Part shown: positions 773 to 11,607 of the stretch, one piece after another
Position numbering within the stretch: the first letter of the stretch is position 1
Layout of the letters: each line of letters opens with the position of its first letter
Assembly: GCF_902859745.1 (NCBI RefSeq)
Contig: NZ_CADIJW010000040.1
Location: forward strand, 1-51,648
Source of the DNA: Achromobacter dolens
Lineage (GTDB): Bacteria > Pseudomonadota > Gammaproteobacteria > Burkholderiales > Burkholderiaceae_B
Length of the DNA: 51,648 bases
Reading direction: 5' to 3'
Position numbers and translations under genes: made by a program
The notes under the pieces: generated by a model
What the model was told of the DNA's origin: nothing
The model's database searches: none
Seen by the model: only the letters and a program-made list of their open reading frames with translations

Positions 773-1936
773 TTACAAGATTCCGCGAACGGCTGCACGA
801 AAAAGTTCGGCGTACTGGTCTGACGTATAGACGACGGGGTTGGTGCCGCCGGACGGATCCTCGCTGGCCATGCGCCCTACCCGCTCGGCTTGCGCGTCGT
901 CGATGCCGATGTCGGCCAGGGTGTGCGGGATGCCGACGGTCTCGCGCAACGCCAGGACCCAGTCGAGCACGGCGCCGGGACTGTCGTCCGGCAGCGCCAG
1001 ATAGCGCGCCAGCGCCTGCAGCCGCGGCGCGACCGCGTGCTGGTTGGCCTTGAGCACGTAGGGCATGAGGATGGCGTTGAGCATGCCGTGGTGGGCGTCG
1101 TACAACGCCCCCAGCGGATGCGCCAGCGCGTGCATCGCGCCGAGCCCGCGCTGGAATGCGGTGGCGCCCATGCTGGAGGCCACCAGCATCTGCTGGCGCG
1201 CCTGCAGGTCGGCGCCATCGGCCACGGCCTGCGGCAGGTATTCCTTGATCATTCGCATGCCTTCCAGCGCGATGCCGGCGGCCATCGGATGGAAGAACGG
1301 CGAACAGTAGGCTTCGAGGTTGTGCGACAGCGCATCCATGCCGGTGGCCGCGGTGATGCGCGGCGGCAGGCCGACGGTAAGCTCGGGATCGAGGATGACG
1401 ATCGCGGGCAGCATGCGCGCGTGGAAGATGATGCGCTTGACCTGCGCCGCCTCGTCGGTGATGACGGAGGCGCGCCCCACTTCCGAGCCCGTGCCCGCGG
1501 TGGTCGGCACCGCGACGACTGGCGCCATGCCGGCCACGTTCACGCGCAGGTAGTTGTCGCCCACGTCTTCGAAATCCCACAGCGGGCGTTTCTGTCCGGC
1601 CATCAGCGCGATGGCCTTGGCCGCGTCCAGCGCCGAGCCGCCGCCGAACGCGATCACGCCGTCGTGGCGGCCTTCGCGATAGCGCGCCACGCCATCGTCC
1701 ACGTTCCTGCCGGTGGGGTTGCCCTTCACTTCGTGGAACAGGCCGCATTCGAGTCCGGCCTGGCGGCAGCCGCGCACCGCGTCGGCGATCATGGGCAGCG
1801 CGGCCAGGCCGGGATCGGTGACCAACAAGGGGCGCGCCATGCCGAGTTCGCGGCACCAGTCGGGCAACTCCTTGATGCGGCCGGGGCCGGCCTTGATGGC
1901 GGTGGGATAGTTCCAGTTGACGCTGGGGACGGTCAT
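773..1936 (-). CDS. Iron-containing (group III) alcohol dehydrogenase
   Basis: NAD(P)-dependent, metal-dependent dehydrogenase of the Fe-ADH/FucO family, 387 residues. The nucleotide-binding motif GGGSALDAAK is at residues 98-107. The metal ligands predicted by alignment to FucO are all present: D201, H205, H269 and H283, in the blocks GMDALSHNLEAY, GAMHALAHPLG and HHGMLNA. The ATG at 1934-1936 gives the usual N-terminus. It is the last gene of a leftward set (phosphatase, glutamine-synthetase-like ligase, aldehyde dehydrogenase, this enzyme) and starts about 20 bp after the aldehyde dehydrogenase stop. An alcohol-to-aldehyde step feeding that dehydrogenase is the natural inference. The substrate is unknown. 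Confidence 0.9.
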   Translation of the reverse strand: MTVPSVNWNYPTAIKAGPGRIKELPDWCRELGMARPLLVTDPGLAALPMIADAVRGCRQAGLECGLFHEVKGNPTGRNVDDGVARYREGRHDGVIAFGGGSALDAAKAIALMAGQKRPLWDFEDVGDNYLRVNVAGMAPVVAVPTTAGTGSEVGRASVITDEAAQVKRIIFHARMLPAIVILDPELTVGLPPRITAATGMDALSHNLEAYCSPFFHPMAAGIALEGMRMIKEYLPQAVADGADLQARQQMLVASSMGATAFQRGLGAMHALAHPLGALYDAHHGMLNAILMPYVLKANQHAVAPRLQALARYLALPDDSPGAVLDWVLALRETVGIPHTLADIGIDDAQAERVGRMASEDPSGGTNPVVYTSDQYAELFRAAVRGIL

Positions 1937-1956
1937 GTCGGCTCCTGGTCGCGCGC

Positions 1957-3348
1957 TCAGGCGTTGCGGCGCAGATGGAAGGATTTGGCTTGGGTGAGCT
2001 GTTCGTAGCCGACGCGCGACAACGAAACGCCGCGGCCGGTGTGTTTGACGCCGGTCCACGCCAGCGCGGGATCGAGGTAGTCGCAGCGGTTCATGAAGAC
2101 GGTGCCCGTGCGCAACTGGCGGCCGAGATGCAATGCGGCCTCTTCATCCTGCGTGAAGATGGCGGCGGTCAGGCCATAGGGGCTGTCGTTCATCAAGGCG
2201 ACGGCCTCTTCGTCGCTGTCGACCGGCATCACGCCGACCACGGGGCCGAAGCATTCATCGTTCATGACGCGCATGCGGTGATCCACCTGCGTCAGCAGCG
2301 TCGGCGCCACATAAGGCGTGCCGGCGCGCGCGGCGTCGAAACGCGCGGCATCGACCAGATTGCGGGCGCCGCGCGCTTCGGCTTCGGCGATCACCTCGCG
2401 CACCTCGTCGGCGGCGCGCGTGCGCACCACCGGACCGAGCGTGGTGACCGGCTGCAGGGGATCGCCCAGCACGTACTCCTGGGTCAGCGCCGCGGCGCGA
2501 TCGATGAAATCCTGGTAGCGGTCGCGCGCCACGTAGATGCGCTGGATGCCGCAGCAGGACTGGCCGGAATTGAAGAAGGCGCCGTCCACCAGCGTCTCGA
2601 CCGCATGCGCCAGGTTGGCGTCGGCGCGCACATACGCGGGGTCGTTGCCGCCCAGCTCCAGGCCCACGCCGATGAAGCGGCCGGCGGCGGCCTGCTCCAC
2701 GCTCTGGCCGCCGCGCACCGAACCGGTGAAGGAGACATAGCCGATCTCGGGCGCGCGGATCAGGCGTTGCGCGATGTCGTGGTTCGCGTGCAGGTACTGG
2801 AACACGCCATGCGGCACGCCCGCTTCGCTGAAGGCGCGGCCGATGAGTTCGGCGCACAGCGGGGTCTGGTCGGAGTGCTTGAGGATGACGGTGTTGCCGG
2901 CCATCAGCGCCGGCACGATGCTGTTCACGGCCGTCAGCAGCGGATAGTTCCACGGCGCGATCGTCAACGCCACGCCGATCGGCTCGCGGCTGATGAAGCG
3001 CGTGAAGCCGGCGATCTCGGGCACCTGGATCGGCGCCAGCGCTTCGGCGGCGATGCCGATCATGTGGCGCGCGCGGGCCTCGAAGCCATCGACCTCACCC
3101 GGCGTGTAGCGCAGCGGACGGCCCATCTGGATCGTGATGGCGCGCGCGATCTCGGCCTTGCCGGCGACGAAGCGCGTCACCGCATCGGACAGGATGCGGG
3201 CGCGCTGCTCGATGCCGAGCGCGTGCCAGGCGCCCTGCGCGGCCTGCGCGTCGGCCAGCGCCTGCGCGACCTGCGCCTCGCTGGCGTAGGGACGGCGCAC
3301 GACTTCGCGGCCGTCGATGGGACTGATGGTGATGAGTTCCTGCGTCAT
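1957..3348 (-). CDS. NAD(P)-dependent aldehyde dehydrogenase
   Basis: Aldehyde dehydrogenase superfamily, 463 residues, a length like the Sad/YneI succinate-semialdehyde group. Visible catalytic parts: Asn134 in PWNYP, Lys157 in ILKHS, Glu231 in ELGGND, and the nucleophile Cys265 in GQSCC. It would oxidise an aldehyde to the acid. It sits between a glutamine-synthetase-like ligase and an alcohol dehydrogenase on the same strand. This fits oxidation of a gamma-glutamylated aldehyde, by analogy with PuuC of putrescine breakdown, but the sequence does not prove the substrate. The start ATG is at 3346-3348; longer forms in this frame overlap the upstream gene. Confidence 0.9.
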   Translation of the reverse strand: MTQELITISPIDGREVVRRPYASEAQVAQALADAQAAQGAWHALGIEQRARILSDAVTRFVAGKAEIARAITIQMGRPLRYTPGEVDGFEARARHMIGIAAEALAPIQVPEIAGFTRFISREPIGVALTIAPWNYPLLTAVNSIVPALMAGNTVILKHSDQTPLCAELIGRAFSEAGVPHGVFQYLHANHDIAQRLIRAPEIGYVSFTGSVRGGQSVEQAAAGRFIGVGLELGGNDPAYVRADANLAHAVETLVDGAFFNSGQSCCGIQRIYVARDRYQDFIDRAAALTQEYVLGDPLQPVTTLGPVVRTRAADEVREVIAEAEARGARNLVDAARFDAARAGTPYVAPTLLTQVDHRMRVMNDECFGPVVGVMPVDSDEEAVALMNDSPYGLTAAIFTQDEEAALHLGRQLRTGTVFMNRCDYLDPALAWTGVKHTGRGVSLSRVGYEQLTQAKSFHLRRNA

Positions 3349-3391
3349 GGCGACCCTGTGCATGCGTGGTGAAAAGATGAAGAGGCGGCGT

Positions 3392-4777
3392 TCAGATGAT
3401 CTCGAAATAACGAGCCAGTTCCCAATCGGTGACGTGACGGCGGAACTGGCGTTCTTCCCATTCGCGCGTGGCGGCGTAATGCTCGACGAAGGCATCGCCG
3501 AACAGCTCGCGCGCGGCTTCGGACTGGCGCAGGCGCTGCGCCGCTTCCCACAACGTCGTGGGCAGGCGCAGGTGCTCGGGAAACTGCTGCGTGTAGGCGT
3601 TGCCCTGCACCATCGGTTCGGGTTGCAGGCCCTGTTCGATGCCGCGCAGGCCCGACGCCAGCGCGGCCGACAGCGCCAGATACGGATTGGCGTCGGCCGA
3701 GCCGATGCGCACTTCGACACGCTGCGACTTGTCGCTGCCCGGGATGAGACGCAGCGCGGTGGTGCGGTTCTCCATGCCCCAGGTCGCGTCCAGCGGCGCC
3801 CAGTAACCCGGCACCAGGCGCGAATAGCTGTTGATGGTCTGCGCGTATAGCGCCATGAATTCGGGCAGGTAGCGTTGCACGCCGGCCATGAAGGCTTCCT
3901 GCGTCACGCTCATGCCGTGCGGGCGCGACTCGTCGTGGAACGCCGAGCGGCCGCTGGTGCGGTCGCGCAGCGACAGGTGGATGTGACCGCTCTGGCCGGG
4001 ATGATCGTGCGACCACTTCGCCATGAAGGTGGCCATCAGGCCGTTCTGCTGCGCCAGCGCCTTGGTGAAGGTCTTGAAGAGGAAGGCCTTGTCGCCGGCA
4101 GCGGCGGCCTGGTCGACCGCGATGGCCGCCTCCAGCACGCCTGGGCCGGTCTCGGTATGCAGGCCTTCGATCGGCATGTCCATGCGCTCGCACATGTCGA
4201 GCAGCTTGCGATAGAAGTCGCCCTGCACGGTGCTGCGCAGCACCGAGTAGCCGAAGTTGCCGGGGGTCCAGTTCTCCATGTCGCGGTAGTGCTTGGCGCG
4301 CACCGAGTGCGGCGTCTCGCGGAACATGAAGAACTCGTATTCGAGCGCGGCGTAGACCTCGAAGCCCATGCCGGCGGCGCGGTCCAGCGTGCGGTGCAGC
4401 AGGCGGCGCGGGCAGATGTCGGCGGCGGGGCCTTCGAACTCGGCCAGGAACAGCAGCATGTCCTCGCCGCCGGGCCCCTGCTCCAGCGGCAACCGGCGGC
4501 AGGTGCTGGGCACGATGCGCAGCTTGGCATCGGGATAGGCCGTGTGCCAGCCGGTGTACTTGGTGTTGTCGTAGAGCTGGTCGTCCAGGTCCCAGCCGAA
4601 CACCACGTCGCAGAACGCCAGCCCGCCGCGCAGCGCGGCCAGGAATTTGTCGCGCCTGACGTACTTGCCCAGCATGACGCCATCGACGTCGGACAGGCCG
4701 ATCTTGATATGCGAAAGCGTGCTGGCCTGGACCAGCCGCTCCGCGTCTTCCACCGTTGCTACCCCTAGTGCATGCAT
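3392..4777 (-). CDS. Glutamine-synthetase-like gamma-glutamyl-amine ligase
   Basis: Glutamine synthetase superfamily, 461 residues, with the C-terminal catalytic fold intact: metal ligands in LEYEFF (E146, E148), GQSGHIHLSL (261-270), NSYSRLVPGYWAP (316-328), MENRTTALRL and VEVRIGSADANPYLA. The size and the dehydrogenase neighbours place it with PuuA/GlnA4-type enzymes that ligate glutamate to amines at the cost of ATP, not with housekeeping GlnA. I see no GlnA-type adenylylation motif. It starts at ATG 4775-4777 behind AAGGTG and lies 43 bp upstream of the aldehyde dehydrogenase. The amine substrate (polyamine, ethanolamine or other) is inferred, not shown. Confidence 0.87.
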   Translation of the reverse strand: MHALGVATVEDAERLVQASTLSHIKIGLSDVDGVMLGKYVRRDKFLAALRGGLAFCDVVFGWDLDDQLYDNTKYTGWHTAYPDAKLRIVPSTCRRLPLEQGPGGEDMLLFLAEFEGPAADICPRRLLHRTLDRAAGMGFEVYAALEYEFFMFRETPHSVRAKHYRDMENWTPGNFGYSVLRSTVQGDFYRKLLDMCERMDMPIEGLHTETGPGVLEAAIAVDQAAAAGDKAFLFKTFTKALAQQNGLMATFMAKWSHDHPGQSGHIHLSLRDRTSGRSAFHDESRPHGMSVTQEAFMAGVQRYLPEFMALYAQTINSYSRLVPGYWAPLDATWGMENRTTALRLIPGSDKSQRVEVRIGSADANPYLALSAALASGLRGIEQGLQPEPMVQGNAYTQQFPEHLRLPTTLWEAAQRLRQSEAARELFGDAFVEHYAATREWEERQFRRHVTDWELARYFEII

Positions 4778-4841
4778 GGCTCGTTCACCTTGTCGTGGCT
4801 GAAGCGTTGCGTTGACGTGCGGGGTCGCGGGGCGCGGTGTT

Positions 4842-5648
4842 TCAGGTCACGGCCGCCCCCAGCATCCGCATCGCCTCGCGATGCAGTTGCGGCGTGGCGG
4901 CCGCGATCACGCGGCCCTGCGACGCGAGGCCTAACGGCTGCCCCGACCAATCGGTAATGACGCCGCCCGCGCCTTCGATCACGGGCATCAGCGCCAGGTA
5001 GTCATACGGCTGCAGGCCGGCCTCGACCACCAGGTCGACATGGCCGCTGGCCAGCAGGCCATAGCTGTAGCAATCGCCGCCATAGCGGCGCATGCGCACC
5101 GAGCGCGCCAGCGCCTCGAACGCGTCCAGGTCGGCGCCTTCGAAGATGTCGGGCGAGGTGGCGTAGAGAATCGCCTGGCCCAGTTCGGTGCAGGGGCGCG
5201 CGCGGCAGGGTTCGCCATTCAGGCGCGCGGGCGAACCGGCAACGCCCAGCCAGCGTTCGGCCATCATGGGAATGTCGATCAGGCCCAGCACCGGGCGGCC
5301 GCGGTGCAGCAGGCCCAGCAGCGTGCCCCACAGGGGATTGCCGGAAATGAACGCGCGGGTGCCGTCGATGGGGTCGAGCGACCACACCCACTCGGCCTCG
5401 GCATGGCTGGCGCCGTATTCCTCGCCGAAGATGCCGTGATCCGGATACTGGCGGGCGATGGCTTCGCGCAGCGCCTGCTCGACCTCGCGGTCGGCACGGG
5501 TGACGGGACTTTCATCCGCTTTGGTTTCGACCATCAGGGGGTGGCGGAACCACTGGCGCGACAAGGGCCGGACCTGGTCCGCCAGCGTCTGGGCGAACGA
5601 GGAAAACGCGGCCAATTGCTGCGCGGTGGGCAGCGGCGAAGTTTGCAT
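4842..5648 (-). CDS. Inositol monophosphatase family phosphatase (HisN-like)
   Basis: Mg-dependent sugar/alcohol phosphatase fold, 268 residues. The motif GEEYG gives E76, DPIDGTRAF gives D92 and D95, and the C-terminal YDYLA gives D216; together these are the metal-binding set of the family. HisN-type histidinol phosphatases and inositol monophosphatases share this pattern. It is the first gene of the leftward catabolic set, far from any his genes, so removal of phosphate from an imported phospho-compound is at least as likely as histidinol phosphatase activity. The start is ATG 5646-5648 because GGAG lies 6 bp upstream; a start further upstream would run into the divergent promoter region. 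Confidence 0.88.
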   Translation of the reverse strand: MQTSPLPTAQQLAAFSSFAQTLADQVRPLSRQWFRHPLMVETKADESPVTRADREVEQALREAIARQYPDHGIFGEEYGASHAEAEWVWSLDPIDGTRAFISGNPLWGTLLGLLHRGRPVLGLIDIPMMAERWLGVAGSPARLNGEPCRARPCTELGQAILYATSPDIFEGADLDAFEALARSVRMRRYGGDCYSYGLLASGHVDLVVEAGLQPYDYLALMPVIEGAGGVITDWSGQPLGLASQGRVIAAATPQLHREAMRMLGAAVT

Positions 5649-5716
5649 GACGAGCTCCGAGGCGTAACGCGGCGCGGAAAGACCCATGCGATTCGGGTTT
5701 TTCCAGTCTAGACACG

Positions 5717-5772
5717 TTGCCACAAATTTGCAAATATACCTAAAAACGCAACCCGGGAAACGCAACGTTTCC
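5717..5772. promoter_or_regulatory. Divergent promoter region with candidate operator
   Basis: In the 215-bp gap between the leftward phosphatase and the rightward importer, TTGCCA (5717-5722) and TAAAAA (5741-5746), 18 bp apart, form a plausible rightward sigma70 promoter. Just downstream is the inverted repeat GGAAACG-CAA-CGTTTCC (5756-5772), placed where a repressor would block initiation. The DeoR protein encoded at the end of the importer operon is the obvious candidate to bind it. The motif is seen; its function is inferred. Confidence 0.45.
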
Positions 5773-5863
5773 TCGCGCAACCCTACCGCCCCGCCCCGCA
5801 GGTCGCCGTTCGCAGAAAAGCAGCTCATCGCCGTTGCCGTGTATTCCTTTCCGGAGTCCCATC

Positions 5864-6874
5864 ATGCAATGTAAGAAGAAGCTTGGTCTCGTGGTTGCAG
5901 TAATTTCCCTAGGTTTGACCCAGGCCGTCCACGCTGGCGCCATCACCGTCTACACCGCGCTGGAGGAAGACGAGATCGCCGCCTACCTGAAGGCGGCCAA
6001 TGCCGCGCTGCCGGACGTGAAGGTGAACGTGCTGCGGCTGTCCACCGGCGACCTGGGCGCGCGCCTGATCGCCGAGGCCGGCAATCCGCAGCAGGACGTG
6101 ATCTGGGGCTTCGCCGTCAGCAACATGCTGGATCCGCGCCTGCAGAAGCTGCTGGAACCGTATGCGGCCAAGGGCATCGACGCGCTGCCCTCGCAATACA
6201 AGGCCGCCGACAACAAATGGTTCGCCGCCACCGGCTACGTGGCCGCGTTCTGTGTCAACACCGACCGGCTCAAGTCCAGGAACCTGCCGATGCCGACCTC
6301 GTGGGAAGACCTGACCAAGCCGGTCTACAAGGGCGAGATCGTCATCCCCAGCCCGGCCGCATCCGGCACCGGTTATCTGCAGATCGTGGCGCTGCTGCAG
6401 GGCCTGGGCGCCGAGAAAGGCTGGGCGCTGCTCAAGGACCTGGACAAGAACGTGGCGCAGTACACGCCGTCGGGATCGCGCCCCTGCAAGATGGCGCGCG
6501 CCGGCGAGTATGCGATCGGCGTGTCGTTCGCGTTCCCGGCGATGCAATCGATCGAGGAAGGCTTTCCGGTGAAGATGGTGATCCCGTCGAAATGGGTGGG
6601 CTATGAACTCGAGGCCTCGGGCCTGATGAAGACGGCGAAGAATCCCGCGGACGCCAAGCGCTTCCTCGACTGGACGCTGTCGGCGCAGGCCGGCGGGCTG
6701 TACAGCAAGTACAAGGAACTGGTGACGATTCCCGGCGCCGCCCCCAACAAGGCGGCCGAAGCCGCGGGCTTGCCCAAGGACCTGACCGCCGTGCTGTATC
6801 CGGTGGACTTCCAGAAATCGGCGGCGGAACGCGACGCCACCATCAAGACCTGGCAGGACACCATCAAACGCTGA
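5864..6874 (+). CDS. ABC importer substrate-binding protein, 2-aminoethylphosphonate type
   Basis: Periplasmic binding protein of the iron/thiamine/AEP-type class, 336 residues. A signal peptide (KKK, hydrophobic stretch, VHA) is predicted to be cleaved after Ala24. The mature protein begins ITVYTALEEDEI and contains the family blocks WFAATGYVAAFCVNTDRL and PSPAASGTGYLQI, resembling the putative AEP-binding protein PhnS2. The start at 5864 has GGAG 7 bp upstream. It is the first gene of a binding protein-ATPase-fused permease-DeoR operon. No phnW or phnX gene is visible nearby, so the ligand could be another phosphorylated or amino compound. Confidence 0.85.
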   Translation: MQCKKKLGLVVAVISLGLTQAVHAGAITVYTALEEDEIAAYLKAANAALPDVKVNVLRLSTGDLGARLIAEAGNPQQDVIWGFAVSNMLDPRLQKLLEPYAAKGIDALPSQYKAADNKWFAATGYVAAFCVNTDRLKSRNLPMPTSWEDLTKPVYKGEIVIPSPAASGTGYLQIVALLQGLGAEKGWALLKDLDKNVAQYTPSGSRPCKMARAGEYAIGVSFAFPAMQSIEEGFPVKMVIPSKWVGYELEASGLMKTAKNPADAKRFLDWTLSAQAGGLYSKYKELVTIPGAAPNKAAEAAGLPKDLTAVLYPVDFQKSAAERDATIKTWQDTIKR

Positions 6875-6925
6875 CGGCGCGCGCGGCCGGCGCCCCCGGC
6901 CGCCACGCCACCGCCTGGAGCGGCC

Positions 6926-7933
6926 ATGTACCTGGAATTGCGCGGGATCCGCAAGACCTTCGACGGCGCGGTGGCGCTGGAAGGCATCGACCTGTCGGTG
7001 GGCGAACATGAATTCGTCTGCCTGCTGGGGCCCAGCGGCTGCGGCAAGACGACCCTGCTGCGCATCGTCGCCGGATTGCTGCCGTTCGACAGCGGCACCA
7101 TCACGCTGGGCGGACGCGACCTGTCGGCGCTGCCGGCGCGCAAGCGCGGCTTTGGCATCGTGTTCCAGTCATATTCACTTTTTCCCAACATGACGGTGGC
7201 CGAGAACGTCGGCTACGGGTTGCGCATCCGCGGCGAGACGCGCGAGCGCATCGACGCACGGGTGCGCGAATTGCTGGCGCTGATCAAGCTGCCGGATTAT
7301 GCACAGCGTTATCCCCATCAGTTGTCCGGCGGCCAGCAACAGCGCGTGGCACTGGCACGGGCACTGGCGGTGGACCCGGCGCTGATCCTGCTGGACGAAC
7401 CCTTGTCGGCGCTGGATGCGCGCGTGCGCACCGACATGCGCGCCGAGATCCACGAGGTGCAGCGCCGCCTGCGGATACCGACCATCATGGTGACGCACGA
7501 CCAGGAGGAAGCGCTCACGCTGGCCGATAAGATCGTGTGCATGAATGACGGCCGCGTCGAGCAGGTGGGAACGCCCTCCGATCTGTATCTGCGGCCGAGC
7601 ACACGCTTCGTCGCCAACTTCGTCGGCCTGAGCAACCTGTTGCCGACCGACTGGGTGCGCGAGGCCATGCCGGCGCTGCTGGCGACCCGGCCCGATGGCG
7701 CCAGCGAGCGTTTCGAGGCCTGCCTGCGGCCGGAAAGCCTGCGCATCGCCGTCGATGAACGCGGACCGGGCCGGGTGCGCGAAATGACCTTCATGGGCAA
7801 CCTGACGCGCGTGCGGGTGGACTGGCGAGGCCGCGAGTTGCTGGTCGAACAGCAGGGCGCTGCGGGCTTGTCGCAGGGCGCGCCCGTGCGGCTGGACATG
7901 GCGCCGGAACAATGCGCCTGGGTTCGCGTATGA
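6926..7933 (+). CDS. ABC importer ATP-binding protein, AEP/spermidine-putrescine type
   Basis: Cytoplasmic ATPase of the importer, 335 residues. Walker A GPSGCGKTT is at 35-43, Q-loop FQSYSLFP near 80-87, signature LSGGQ at 133-137, Walker B LILLDEP at 153-159, and the switch histidine is H191. The last 100 or so residues form a TOBE-like domain as in PotA/FbpC/PhnT2-type subunits. The ATG at 6926 is preceded by CTGGAG. It lies 51 bp after the binding-protein gene and 37 bp before the permease. Confidence 0.93.
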   Translation: MYLELRGIRKTFDGAVALEGIDLSVGEHEFVCLLGPSGCGKTTLLRIVAGLLPFDSGTITLGGRDLSALPARKRGFGIVFQSYSLFPNMTVAENVGYGLRIRGETRERIDARVRELLALIKLPDYAQRYPHQLSGGQQQRVALARALAVDPALILLDEPLSALDARVRTDMRAEIHEVQRRLRIPTIMVTHDQEEALTLADKIVCMNDGRVEQVGTPSDLYLRPSTRFVANFVGLSNLLPTDWVREAMPALLATRPDGASERFEACLRPESLRIAVDERGPGRVREMTFMGNLTRVRVDWRGRELLVEQQGAAGLSQGAPVRLDMAPEQCAWVRV

Positions 7934-7970
7934 AAGCGTCCGCCACGCCGGCACGCGCGGGAGTCCGAGT

Positions 7971-9653
7971 ATGAATACGGTTCGTATCGGCGCCGCCGCG
8001 TCGTCCCGCGCCGGCCGCGCGTCCGTGTCGCTGGACCGGGTGTTGCTCTGGACCTGCGTTGGCATCCCGATGGCCGGGCTGGCATTGTTCTTCCTGTATC
8101 CATTGGCCACGGTGGGCTGGCGCAGCCTGGTGGAAAAGGACGGCGCTATCGGCCTGGGCAATTACGCCGAGGTGTTCGCCACCCGCGGCATCCTGACCGC
8201 CACCGCCAACAGCCTGACGATGAGCGCGGCCACCACCGTCGTCAGCCTGCTGCTGGGCTTTGCCATCGCCTTCGGGCTGGACCGCAGCCGCATGCGCGGC
8301 AAGGCGCTGGTGAAGCTGGCGCTGGTGCTGCCGCTGCTGGCGCCGTCGCTGGTGCAGGGGCTGGGGCTGATCTTCATCCTTGGACGCAACGGCCTGGTGC
8401 ATCGCTGGACGGGCTGGGAATTCGATATCTACGGCTTCTGGGGCCTGCTGATCTCGAACGTGTTCTACGCCCTGCCCCAGGCCGTGCTGATCCTGCAGGC
8501 GGCGCTGCGCAACACCGATGCGCGCTATTACGACGCGGCCGAGGTGATGGGCGCGTCGAGCGCGCGGCAGTTCTTCGACATCACGCTGCCCAACTGCAAA
8601 TTCGGGCTGCTGAGCGCAGCGTTCGTGGTGTTCGTCATCACCATCACCGACTTCGGCAACGCCGCGGTGATCGGCGGCAACTATCGCGTGCTGGCCACCG
8701 AGATCTACAGCCAGGTGTCGGGGCAGATGAATTTCGGCATGGGCTCGGTGGTCGGCATCCTGCTGCTGCTGCCGTCGCTGATCTCGGTGCAGATCGAACG
8801 GGTGGCGTCGCAGCGCCAGTTCGGCGCCGCCTCGCCCAGCGGGCTGCGCGTCACGCCGCAACCGGCGCGCGGCCGCGACCTGGCGTTCACGGCCGGCGTA
8901 TTGCTGTGCGCCAGCGCCATCGTGGTGACGGTGGGCACGGTGGTGTTCGCCAGCTTCATGCGGCTGTGGCCCTACCGCATGGAGTGGACCTTGAAGCACT
9001 ACGACATCACCGTCAGCGGCGGTTATGCGCCGCTGTGGACCTCGCTGTACCTGTCGCTGGCGGCCGCGGCCGGCGGGGTGCTGCTGCTGTTCTTCCTGAC
9101 CTTTGGTGTCTGCCGCATCCCGCGCGCCTGGGCCAAGCTGGTGTACCTGGTGTCGGTGCTGCCCGTGGGCGTGCCGGGGCTGGTGCTGGGGCTGTCGTAC
9201 ATCTTCGCCTTCAATTCGCCCGCCAATCCGCTCTACGCACTGTATGGCAGCGCCGCGCTGATCGCGCTATGCAACTTCTACCACTATCACACGCAGGGCT
9301 TCCTGACGATGATGACCGGCATGCGCGCCGTGCCGCAGGCGCTGGAGGAGGCGGTGAGCTGCCTGGGCGGCGGCACTGTGCAGGTGCTGCGCGACGCGGT
9401 GCTGCCGCAGATCGCCCCAACGGTGCTGGGCGTGTTCTTTTTCCTCTTCATGCGCTCCATGGTGACGCTGTCGGCGGTGATCTTCCTGGTCACGCCGTCG
9501 GTCAGCGTCGCGCCGGTTTCCGTACTGCGGCTGGACGAAGCCGGGTTCGTCTCGCAGGCCGCGGCCTATTCGACGCTTATCATGCTGGTCGTGGGCGGTT
9601 CGCTGCTGGCGATGCGCTCGTTGATCGCGCTGCCGGCGCGACGCCGCAAATAG
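7971..9653 (+). CDS. ABC importer permease, two permease domains fused (PhnU2-like)
   Basis: Inner-membrane protein of 560 residues carrying two complete BPD permease domains in tandem, about residues 20-285 and 305-555. Each has an EAA-type loop (EVMGASSARQFFDITLP; AVSCLGGGTVQVLRDAVLP) that docks on the ATPase. About twelve hydrophobic segments can be seen. Fused permeases of this length occur in Fbp/Afu iron and PhnU2 aminoethylphosphonate importers, so one polypeptide replaces the usual heterodimer. The start ATG 7971 has GGAG 7 bp upstream. A DeoR gene follows 17 bp later, which suggests one operon. Confidence 0.92.
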   Translation: MNTVRIGAAASSRAGRASVSLDRVLLWTCVGIPMAGLALFFLYPLATVGWRSLVEKDGAIGLGNYAEVFATRGILTATANSLTMSAATTVVSLLLGFAIAFGLDRSRMRGKALVKLALVLPLLAPSLVQGLGLIFILGRNGLVHRWTGWEFDIYGFWGLLISNVFYALPQAVLILQAALRNTDARYYDAAEVMGASSARQFFDITLPNCKFGLLSAAFVVFVITITDFGNAAVIGGNYRVLATEIYSQVSGQMNFGMGSVVGILLLLPSLISVQIERVASQRQFGAASPSGLRVTPQPARGRDLAFTAGVLLCASAIVVTVGTVVFASFMRLWPYRMEWTLKHYDITVSGGYAPLWTSLYLSLAAAAGGVLLLFFLTFGVCRIPRAWAKLVYLVSVLPVGVPGLVLGLSYIFAFNSPANPLYALYGSAALIALCNFYHYHTQGFLTMMTGMRAVPQALEEAVSCLGGGTVQVLRDAVLPQIAPTVLGVFFFLFMRSMVTLSAVIFLVTPSVSVAPVSVLRLDEAGFVSQAAAYSTLIMLVVGGSLLAMRSLIALPARRRK

Positions 9654-9670
9654 ATTAGGAAGCATCCGAT

Positions 9671-10432
9671 ATGTGGCAAGAAGAGCGGTATCAGAGAATC
9701 CGCGCCCTGCTGTCTTCCCTGCAGCAGGTATCGACCGACCGTATCGTCGGCGAATTGGGGGTATCGCGGGAGACCGTCCGGCGCGATCTGCTGGAACTGG
9801 AGGCGATGGGCGAATTGCGCCGCGTGCATGGCGGCGCGGTGCCGGTGCACAGCGAGCCGCCCATCACGGAACGCGTGCATACCCGCGTCAAGTACAAGCG
9901 CGCCATCGCGCGCGCCGCCGCCGGCCTGGTGACGAGCGGCCAGACGCTGTTCCTGGATGCCGGCAGCACCACCAGCATGCTGGCGGACGAGCTGGCCAAG
10001 CTGAGCGGCCTGACCCTCATCACCAATTCTTTCGACGTGGCGCTCAAGGTCGGCGCCGCCGGCAACGGCGCCAATGAACTCATCATGCTGGGCGGATCGG
10101 TGGGCGGGCCGGTGTGCGCCACCGCCGGCGACATCACCATCGCCGAGATCCACCGCTACCGCGCCGACGTGGCGTTGCTGTCGCCGGTGGGCGTGGATGC
10201 CGAATGCGGCGCCACCAGCTACGACCTGCGAGAGGCCGAAGTGGCGCGCGCCATGGCGGCCAACGCCAAACAGCGCATCCTGCTGGCCGACTTCAGCAAG
10301 ATCGGCCTGTGCAGCCGGGTGTCGTACTGCGAGGTGAACCGCATCGATCACCTCGTCACCAACACCAACGCACAGAAGCAGCCGGCCTTCGCGGCCCTGA
10401 AGAGCGCGGTCGGCAAGATGCTGGTGGTGTAG
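9671..10432 (+). CDS. DeoR/GlpR-family transcriptional regulator
   Basis: 253 residues. The N-terminal winged helix (about 6-57) includes VSTDRIVGELGVSRETVRRD and GELRRVHGGAV, the DeoR signature. The C-terminal sugar-phosphate-isomerase-like sensor domain contains DAGSTTSMLADEL. DeoR proteins usually repress catabolic operons and respond to phosphorylated intermediates, which fits a locus holding an importer and a phosphatase. AGGA lies 8 bp before the ATG at 9671. It is the last gene of the rightward operon and converges on the next gene with a 7-bp gap. Confidence 0.93.
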   Translation: MWQEERYQRIRALLSSLQQVSTDRIVGELGVSRETVRRDLLELEAMGELRRVHGGAVPVHSEPPITERVHTRVKYKRAIARAAAGLVTSGQTLFLDAGSTTSMLADELAKLSGLTLITNSFDVALKVGAAGNGANELIMLGGSVGGPVCATAGDITIAEIHRYRADVALLSPVGVDAECGATSYDLREAEVARAMAANAKQRILLADFSKIGLCSRVSYCEVNRIDHLVTNTNAQKQPAFAALKSAVGKMLVV

Positions 10433-10439
10433 CGCCGCC

Positions 10440-11441
10440 TCAATCCACCGACACCCCCGCCACCTTCACCATGTCTGCCCAGTACGTGGTGTCCTGTTGC
10501 AGGCGCTTGCCGAACGCATCGGGCGCGCTGCCGACGGGCTGGCTGCCGCCGGCCTGGATCTTGGCGATCACATTGGGCGACTTCATGGCCTGCGCCACCG
10601 CCTGCGCCAAGTAGGCGACGCGTTCGGGCGGCGTGCCGGCCGGCGCGAACAGGCCGTACCAGTCGTCGGCCGTGATGCCGTCCATGCCGGATTGGCCAAG
10701 CGTCGGCGCGCCCTTGAAGATGCCGATGCCGTTCTCATGGCTCAGCGCCAGGATGCGTAGCTTGCCGGCCGCCACCATCGGCTCGGCCGAGGCCGGCGAG
10801 GTGATCAGCATGTCGACCGTGCCGCCCATCAGGTCGGTGATCGCGGGCGCGGCGCCACGGTACGGCACGTGCACCAGCTTGACGTTGGCCTTCTGCGACA
10901 GCAGCGCCCCCATCAGGTGGCTCATGGTGCCGTTGCCGGGCGTGGCGTAGGTGATGACGCCGGGCTGCTTGCGCGCGGCGTCCAGGTAGTCGCCCAGCGA
11001 CTTGTAGGCGCTTTCGCTGCGCGCCACCAGCACCAGCGGCGCCGAAGTGATCTGCGAGATCGGCACGAAATCCTTGAGCGGATCGAAGCCCACATTCTTG
11101 TACAGGCGCGGGTTGACCGCCATCACGCTGGTCTGCGACATCACCAGCGTATAGCCGTCGGGCTTGGCGCGCGAGACCTGCGAAGTGCCAACGTTGCCAC
11201 CCGCGCCCGAGCGGTTTTCCACCACCACGCTCTGGCCGGTGATGGCGCCCAGTTCCTGCGCGAGGAGACGCGCGACGCCATCGTTGCCGCCCCCCGGCGG
11301 GAACGGCGAGACCACGGTGATGGGCTGCTTGGGATAGTCGGCCAATGGCGCCGGCGCCTGGGCGTGGGCATTCATCCCCCAGGCCAGGCAGGCCAGGGCC
11401 GCGGCGGTCTTGCAGGCATGCTGCAGATTGAGCTTGTTCAT
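10440..11441 (-). CDS. Tripartite tricarboxylate receptor (Bug) family binding protein
   Basis: Extracytoplasmic solute receptor of 333 residues. The signal peptide ends NAHA and is probably cleaved after residue 27. The mature start YPKQPITVVSPFPPGGGND is diagnostic for Bug receptors, a family greatly expanded in Bordetella. No TctA or TctB membrane genes are adjacent, as is common for orphan Bug proteins. The ATG is at 11439-11441; longer frames read through the leader. It follows the rhodanese gene by 166 bp on the same strand and may belong to the sulfur locus. The ligand is unknown. Confidence 0.92.
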   Translation of the reverse strand: MNKLNLQHACKTAAALACLAWGMNAHAQAPAPLADYPKQPITVVSPFPPGGGNDGVARLLAQELGAITGQSVVVENRSGAGGNVGTSQVSRAKPDGYTLVMSQTSVMAVNPRLYKNVGFDPLKDFVPISQITSAPLVLVARSESAYKSLGDYLDAARKQPGVITYATPGNGTMSHLMGALLSQKANVKLVHVPYRGAAPAITDLMGGTVDMLITSPASAEPMVAAGKLRILALSHENGIGIFKGAPTLGQSGMDGITADDWYGLFAPAGTPPERVAYLAQAVAQAMKSPNVIAKIQAGGSQPVGSAPDAFGKRLQQDTTYWADMVKVAGVSVD

Positions 11442-11564
11442 CGGTATTTCCCCTTGTGGTTGGCGGCCGGATGCTCGGCCGTCCATTGCATTTCGGTTCG
11501 CCATGAACCGTCCGCGCCCCGCCGTCGAAAGCGTCGGGGCGTGCTGATCGGATGAAGCGTTGGG

Positions 11565-11586
11565 CGCGGCCGCCACGGCGGCCGCG
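11565..11586. repeat. GC-rich inverted repeat between rhodanese and Bug genes
   Basis: CGCGGCCGCC and GGCGGCCGCG form ten-base arms around a 2-bp loop. There is no T-run on either side, so it is not a convincing intrinsic terminator. It could slow or stabilise a read-through transcript from the sulfur genes into the Bug gene. Confidence 0.5.
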
Positions 11587-11607
11587 AGGATCATGCAGTC
11601 ACGGCGG

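Follow-up and report, generated by a model that had tools for sequence, protein, structure and literature searches.

What does a bacterium take up through an ATP-binding cassette (ABC) importer named after 2-aminoethylphosphonate, when the genes that face it look like those for degrading ethanolamine? The question is raised by a locus of Achromobacter dolens (NCBI RefSeq assembly GCF_902859745.1) at positions 773 to 10,432 of contig NZ_CADIJW010000040.1; the window analysed is the stretch from position 1 to 51,648 of that contig (51,648 nucleotides). The locus comprises eight intact genes, all with open frames, in two divergent operons that lie 215 bp apart and have intergenic gaps of 17-64 bp within each. 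Reading outward from the common promoter region (5649..5863), the minus strand encodes a phosphatase, a glutamine-synthetase-like ligase, an aldehyde dehydrogenase and an alcohol dehydrogenase, and the plus strand a receptor, an ATPase, a fused permease and a DeoR-family regulator. This is the arrangement described in a first-pass annotation made from the sequence alone, except that seven genes were counted there.

Our answer, which we regard as very probable, is that the two operons are controlled by DeoR and together import intact phosphoethanolamine, dephosphorylate it inside the cell and degrade the resulting ethanolamine via gamma-glutamyl intermediates. The periplasmic receptor (5864..6874, plus strand) would bind phosphoethanolamine, and the importer formed with the ATPase (6926..7933, plus) and the fused permease (7971..9653, plus) would bring in the intact ester. 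The HisN-like phosphatase of the IMPase family (4842..5648, minus strand) would convert this within the cell to ethanolamine and phosphate. The ligase (3392..4777, minus; Gln-synt_C domain) is a predicted gamma-glutamylethanolamide synthetase, and its product would be oxidized to gamma-glutamylglycine by two dehydrogenases, i.e. the iron-dependent alcohol dehydrogenase (773..1936, minus; Pfam Fe-ADH, passing no NCBIfam equivalog cut-off) as the predicted gamma-glutamylethanolamide dehydrogenase, and the aldehyde dehydrogenase (1957..3348, minus; Pfam Aldedh) as the one predicted to give gamma-glutamylglycine. An amidase encoded elsewhere, perhaps the M81 metallopeptidase or class-I amidotransferase found in relatives, would finally release glycine and glutamate. 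The regulator (9671..10432, plus; HTH_DeoR and DeoRC domains) would control both promoters, perhaps as a sensor of phosphoethanolamine. Phosphorus, nitrogen and carbon would thus all be obtained from a single lipid head group.

We infer that the locus combines the known gamma-glutamyl ethanolamine pathway with two upstream additions, a dedicated phosphoethanolamine importer and a phosphatase. A chain of import, dephosphorylation, N-glutamylation and stepwise alcohol oxidation, first to aldehyde and then to acid, had been put forward in the first-pass annotation for an amino-alcohol phosphate or phosphonate. Comparative genomics agrees with the chain and would narrow it to phosphoethanolamine: the ligase and dehydrogenases occur with genes for ethanolamine permeases, EutR-like regulators and amidotransferases, and the importer unit is found beside eutBC or a phospho-lyase homologue.

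The evidence for ethanolamine comes from a scan of named genomes for relatives of the ligase, in which the best 80 of 592 confirmed loci were taken (13 in Achromobacter and 67 elsewhere, i.e. the closest relatives only). Neighbouring genes, both here and at the receptor and cassette loci discussed below, were counted from tblastn. Among the 67 loci outside Achromobacter an alcohol dehydrogenase lies near the ligase in 61 and an aldehyde dehydrogenase in 57. In 16 an APC-type (ethanolamine-permease-like) gene precedes the ligase on its strand at a distance of 27-283 bp, and LysR regulators (22), tripartite ATP-independent periplasmic (TRAP) receptors (nine) and EutR-like regulators (five) are also found nearby. 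Three ligase-adjacent permeases were scored with the curated ethanolamine permease model (cut-off 381.75); two exceeded the cut-off (L132, 653.3; L094, 551.8) and one fell below it (L080, 370.8). L132, which lies outside the set of 80, belongs to an Achromobacter genome that lacks the importer, and there the ethanolamine permease and a EutR-like gene adjoin the ligase in its place. For the EutR-like protein of L050 the score is 245.4, below the cut-off of 319.

The ligase itself scores 218.7 bits as GlnA (cut-off 429.15) and 181.8 bits as gamma-glutamylputrescine synthetase (cut-off 650). The genome's own GlnA has a DGSS loop that is missing from this ligase and from five of its relatives, and another, stronger glutamine synthetase match is present elsewhere in the same genome; an ordinary glutamine synthetase was rejected on these three grounds. 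The putrescine (Puu) pathway was rejected on the PuuA-type score just given together with a PuuC-type score of 233.9 bits against a cut-off of 850. The trio of ligase and dehydrogenases matches the known gamma-glutamyl ethanolamine pathway, and the permease, EutR-like and eutBC contexts support ethanolamine as the probable substrate of the ligase.

That pathway is described for Phaeobacter sp. MED193, where the ethanolamine operon encodes EtoXVW, ETAGA, GAADDH, GETADH and GGAH, and where the ligase, both dehydrogenases and the amidohydrolase rise during growth on phosphoethanolamine (PMC10132767). In that organism the phosphate is reported to be removed outside the cell, with a contribution from PhoX, and the TRAP receptor to bind ethanolamine and not phosphoethanolamine (PMC10132767). 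Like the Phaeobacter operon as there described, the Achromobacter locus has an ethanolamine ligase and two dehydrogenases predicted to lead to gamma-glutamylglycine; unlike it, the locus has an ABC importer and a phosphatase of intracellular type, and no amidohydrolase gene lies in the cluster. In the Streptomyces coelicolor GlnA4 cluster (SCO1610-SCO1615) the first step, glutamylation of ethanolamine by GlnA4, is proven, and the later steps are proposed to involve dehydrogenases and an amidohydrolase (PMC6529630). This cluster differs in having a short-chain dehydrogenase and, in some species, an ethanolamine permease gene; unlike the Achromobacter locus, no importer or phosphatase for a phosphate ester is named for it in the available portion of that report (PMC6529630).

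If the trio accounts for ethanolamine, the importer and phosphatase can be examined by the company they keep elsewhere. Searches of genomes and plasmids with the receptor only led to 25 loci outside Achromobacter that were opened, 13 in genomes and 12 from 16 plasmid records (records H11, H13, H14 and H16 stand outside the tally). On re-checking by tblastn, ten of these have the phosphatase with EutB and EutC, five have a phospho-lyase homologue and no phosphatase, and four have the phosphatase without an adjoining degradation module. The remaining six have none of these, and their receptors fall outside the clade of linked receptors described below; two of them have a HAD hydrolase. Phosphatase and phospho-lyase never occur in the same locus (14 versus five loci).

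Six of the EutBC loci are in genomes of three genera belonging to another family of the same order, and these are all six matches among the 297 genomes searched. At L148 the Pfam scores are 738.9 bits for EutB and 308.2 for EutC. The other four are on Azospirillum plasmids, where eutC-eutB-hisN faces receptor-ATPase-permease-deoR, which is the layout of the Achromobacter locus with eutBC replacing the ligase trio. No ligase relative was found at E <= 1e-40 in G643, a genome of the EutBC type. Thus relatives of the importer, phosphatase and DeoR are attached to a short eut operon in ten loci, while EutB is absent from Achromobacter (0 of 43 genomes; among 14 control genomes it was matched in E. 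coli only), and EutBC was accordingly rejected as the host's own route for ethanolamine. The loci found with the ligase add five in which trio and cassette occur together. Two of these, L142 and L145, are laid out like the Achromobacter locus, and the other three, L146, L152 and L153, have the cassette at the far end.

The phospho-lyase loci are on four conjugative Klebsiella/Enterobacter plasmids (L176, L188, L189 and L190) and in genome G1300. The homologue on the plasmids is annotated as an aspartate aminotransferase family protein, and that of G1300 is 74 percent identical to the plasmid copies. These class-III pyridoxal phosphate-dependent (PLP) enzymes score 344.5 and 355.3 bits against the human ethanolamine-phosphate phospho-lyase 6tor and 319.3 and 312.2 bits against the bacterial phospholyase 5g4i; the next enzyme family reaches 185-189 bits. 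The Klebsiella enzyme is far below the cut-off for the phosphonate lyase PbfA (193 versus 525).

The phosphatase thus accompanies either the gamma-glutamyl route or EutBC, and the phospho-lyase occurs without the phosphatase; the metabolite common to all three arrangements would therefore be phosphoethanolamine. The unit of importer, phosphatase and DeoR is portable, as judged from these gene neighbourhoods. We consider it likely that it constitutes a phosphoethanolamine-scavenging cassette of Alpha-, Beta- and Gammaproteobacteria that feeds three unrelated routes (gamma-glutamyl oxidation, EutBC and phospho-lyase), which would make it the first uptake system in bacteria dedicated to intact phosphoethanolamine. 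The cassette so proposed consists of receptor, ATPase, fused permease and a DeoR protein with its own tandem operator, together with a HisN-like phosphatase or, in its place, a PLP phospho-lyase. No publication on a phosphoethanolamine transporter was found in a literature search, which is weak evidence since subscription journals were thinly covered.

We note that in L179 (11796-12488) and L180 (11935-12663) a HAD hydrolase follows distant receptors (53-57 percent identity), in the place of the HisN-like phosphatase.

The database names raise the alternative that the importer takes 2-aminoethylphosphonate, the facing ethanolamine operon merely using the same promoter. The best NCBIfam matches of the importer are indeed aminoethylphosphonate models, yet all three proteins fall below the curated cut-offs: the receptor, which is PhnS2-like, scores 345.5 bits with TIGR03261 (cut-off 392.75), the PhnT2-like ATPase 409.4 bits with TIGR03265 (457.7) and the PhnU2-like permease 482.3 bits with TIGR03262 (593.25). 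The known importers of this compound (TIGR03261 type; AepXVW and AepSTU) belong to the same families, and the receptors AepX and AepS have Pfam PF13343 in common with the locus receptor (PMC8316502). Moreover phosphoethanolamine and 2-aminoethylphosphonate are isosteric, and the two groups of receptors have identical phosphate subsites. However, a second receptor with 42-44 percent identity is present in all 43 Achromobacter genomes. In this genome it is 44 percent identical and is encoded elsewhere, adjoining the phosphonoacetaldehyde hydrolase gene phnX (329.3 bits, cut-off 220), and it is this aminoethylphosphonate-clade receptor that argues against the phosphonate allowed by the first-pass annotation as the imported compound. 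By contrast phnX was not found near any scanned ligase or cassette locus, and the importer is linked to the phosphatase, to eutBC and to the phospho-lyase homologue, enzymes that do not act on C-P bonds.

The receptor tree leads in the same direction. For the tree and for a table of pocket residues, the relatives listed for each receptor (120 apiece) were sampled at every fourth entry, and the receptors of the loci were added. In this sampled tree all 31 receptors of the type of the phnX-linked paralogue form their own clade with a support of 1.0, and the ligase-, EutBC- and phospho-lyase-linked receptors lie in another clade, of 48 leaves, that contains no phnX-type receptor. Given the scores below the cut-offs, the phnX-linked paralogue and the separate clades, an aminoethylphosphonate importer was not our first choice, and we regard it as improbable.

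The closest relatives of the receptor with a solved structure and a published ligand are AfuA and P5PA, which bind hexose phosphates and pyridoxal phosphate, respectively (PMC4546632, PMC8427247). Most residues of the phosphate site are common to these and the locus receptor, the positions corresponding to AfuA 37, 38, 148, 149, 150, 184 and 185 being T, G, S, G, T, S and G in 18 of 18 cassette receptors. The sugar-binding residues His205 and Asp206 are replaced, the former by Phe in 18 of 18 cassette receptors (Tyr in 31 of 31 of the aminoethylphosphonate type) and the latter by Pro, Ala, Val or Thr across the linked receptors. The pocket therefore supports a small phosphate or phosphonate as the putative ligand. 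At E <= 1e-60 the receptor has 1223 relatives (120 listed), a group that databases name iron(III) or plain ABC transporter receptors, and not all 1223 need have the same substrate.

The exact ligand is not fixed by the sequence, and the variation at residue 206 between linked receptors would accommodate a related compound (glycerophosphoethanolamine, 1-amino-2-propanol phosphate or several amino-alcohol phosphates) and a broader pathway. Known class-III phospho-lyases act on 5-phosphohydroxylysine as well as on phosphoethanolamine (PMC8154272). Against this, the cassette has no recognisable phosphodiesterase gene, and the ethanolamine permease, EutBC and phospho-lyase contexts all point to ethanolamine or its phosphate; we place a broader ligand marginally below aminoethylphosphonate in probability.

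The phosphatase passes the histidinol-phosphatase model TIGR02067 with 295.8 bits (cut-off 275.15), and its DPxDGT motif, which we take to be the phosphatase pattern, is intact. Related phosphatases at several of the receptor-found loci carry the annotation hisN. A phosphatase above this cut-off is present in only 33 of the 43 Achromobacter genomes, and so that of the locus is probably accessory and not the housekeeping histidinol-phosphatase, assuming that the ten genomes without it make histidine; five of the ten are single-contig assemblies, and four have a weaker homologue at 243-248 bits. A housekeeping identity was rejected because the gene is not kept across the genus. It is very improbable that the ligase is a glutamine or gamma-glutamylputrescine synthetase, the phosphatase an ordinary histidinol-phosphatase and the cluster a coincidence, for while the ligase resembles both synthetase types and the phosphatase passes its model, the ligase and PuuC-type scores, the lost loop, the stronger synthetase elsewhere, the ten genomes without the phosphatase and the permease and EutR-like genes that flank ligase relatives all speak against it.

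Returning to import of phosphoethanolamine under DeoR control, the promoter region contains tandem repeats (5717..5753, plus strand) that we predict to be the DeoR operator. Operator sites were chosen by eye from intergenic regions, and the resulting matrix was tested with each lineage group left out in turn. The best site of the locus then fell in the gap between phosphatase and receptor in all 14 loci and all 10 groups, with at least 16.5 bits in 12 of the 14. With the Achromobacter sites excluded from the matrix, the site at 5727-5753 scores 20.2 bits and is the best in the first 20 kb of the window. The full matrix gave 32.8 (L144), 30.4 (L049) and 29.8 (L133) at three loci that were not used in building it and that have DeoR and the phosphatase without the importer. 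The motif is weaker at phospho-lyase loci (L182, 16.6; L176, 11.7; best match outside the promoter in L188). Loci lacking the regulator (L128, L129, L131, L134 and L151) have no strong site at the promoter. The motif thus tends to accompany the DeoR gene, which is the behaviour expected of its operator. No sigma-70 consensus was detected when the divergent promoter was scanned.

The first-pass annotation had proposed a survey of whether the genes occur together. Among the 43 Achromobacter genomes the ligase is present in 41, the receptor in 29 and the over-cut-off phosphatase in 33, and all 29 with the receptor have both of the others; the association of the gene set is more than chance. In one of the 29 (G029:C6:85072-86062) the receptor frame is split into two pieces.

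The last step of the pathway is the one for which the locus provides no gene. Outside Achromobacter a class-I amidotransferase lies near the ligase in 32 of 67 loci and an M81 metallopeptidase in 10, so that one or the other is present in 42. Of the 55 with enough downstream sequence, 29 have the amidotransferase, 10 the M81 protein, none both and 16 neither. The M81/MlrC-type protein replaces the amidotransferase at the operon end in L048, L050, L053-L056, L059-L061 and L063. This suggests that the two could be alternative amidases, although the pattern also follows phylogeny, and the M81/MlrC-type protein may hydrolyse gamma-glutamylglycine in place of the amidotransferase, which would be a function new to the M81 family. 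The presence of M81 genes in Achromobacter says little because they are found in all 43 genomes.

Several observations weigh against our reading. The clade of linked receptors has a support of only 0.646. Within the pocket AfuA Thr60 is Ala in all receptor groups, the sugar-binding Glu229 is retained, and the phosphate subsite, being equally kept in aminoethylphosphonate-type receptors, provides no choice between phosphate ester and phosphonate. The importer is lacking in 12 of the 41 ligase-bearing Achromobacter genomes, and the phosphatase occurs without the receptor in G014, G024 and G032 (at the ligase) and in G025 (with DeoR, at another place). The motif scores of L175 (12.8), L178 (11.4) and L176 are within the range reached by chance elsewhere (up to 14.8), and no motif site was found in L177. 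The five phospho-lyase loci represent just two lineages, as the enzyme is the same at 100 percent on all four plasmids, which thus count as a single mobile lineage. Lastly, the first-pass annotation had the amidase encoded elsewhere. It is indeed not in the operon, with no GATase or M81 homologue in any of the 13 named Achromobacter loci (N-formylglutamate-type amidohydrolases were not searched for). Three of the genome's five M81 matches were compared with the operon-linked proteins, and with best identities of 46-50 percent, against 55-69 percent among the operon-linked proteins, no clear orthologue was found among these three.

A major phospholipid of bacterial and animal membranes carries phosphoethanolamine as its head group. 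If our reading is correct, an importer for the intact ester would change the view of how microbes share lipid-derived phosphorus, nitrogen and carbon. It would also provide a function for a group of receptors and a new role for phosphatases annotated as hisN, the uptake cassette being hidden in databases under the names of iron, aminoethylphosphonate and histidinol-phosphatase.

At the alcohol dehydrogenase end the locus is directly followed by tRNA genes. After the importer operon there is a gene for a TctC-type receptor on the opposite strand (10440-11594), and a receptor of this type directly adjoins the ligase in seven Achromobacter loci without the importer cassette. A. ruhlandii LMG 1866 has a ligase identical at 100 percent to the one encoded here. 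Nitrosomonas (L084, L092, L101, L105 and L112) and Legionella (L068, L071, L082 and L087) carry the ligase trio as well, and no importer of the reference set was found alongside it in these genomes; a possible role there is recycling of the cell's own ethanolamine. In a gammaproteobacterial metagenome-assembled genome (L106:3639-9827) a different importer adjoins the ligase, dehydrogenase and amidotransferase genes, and the region includes an OpuAC-type receptor, a choline/ethanolamine-kinase-like gene and a distant DeoR.

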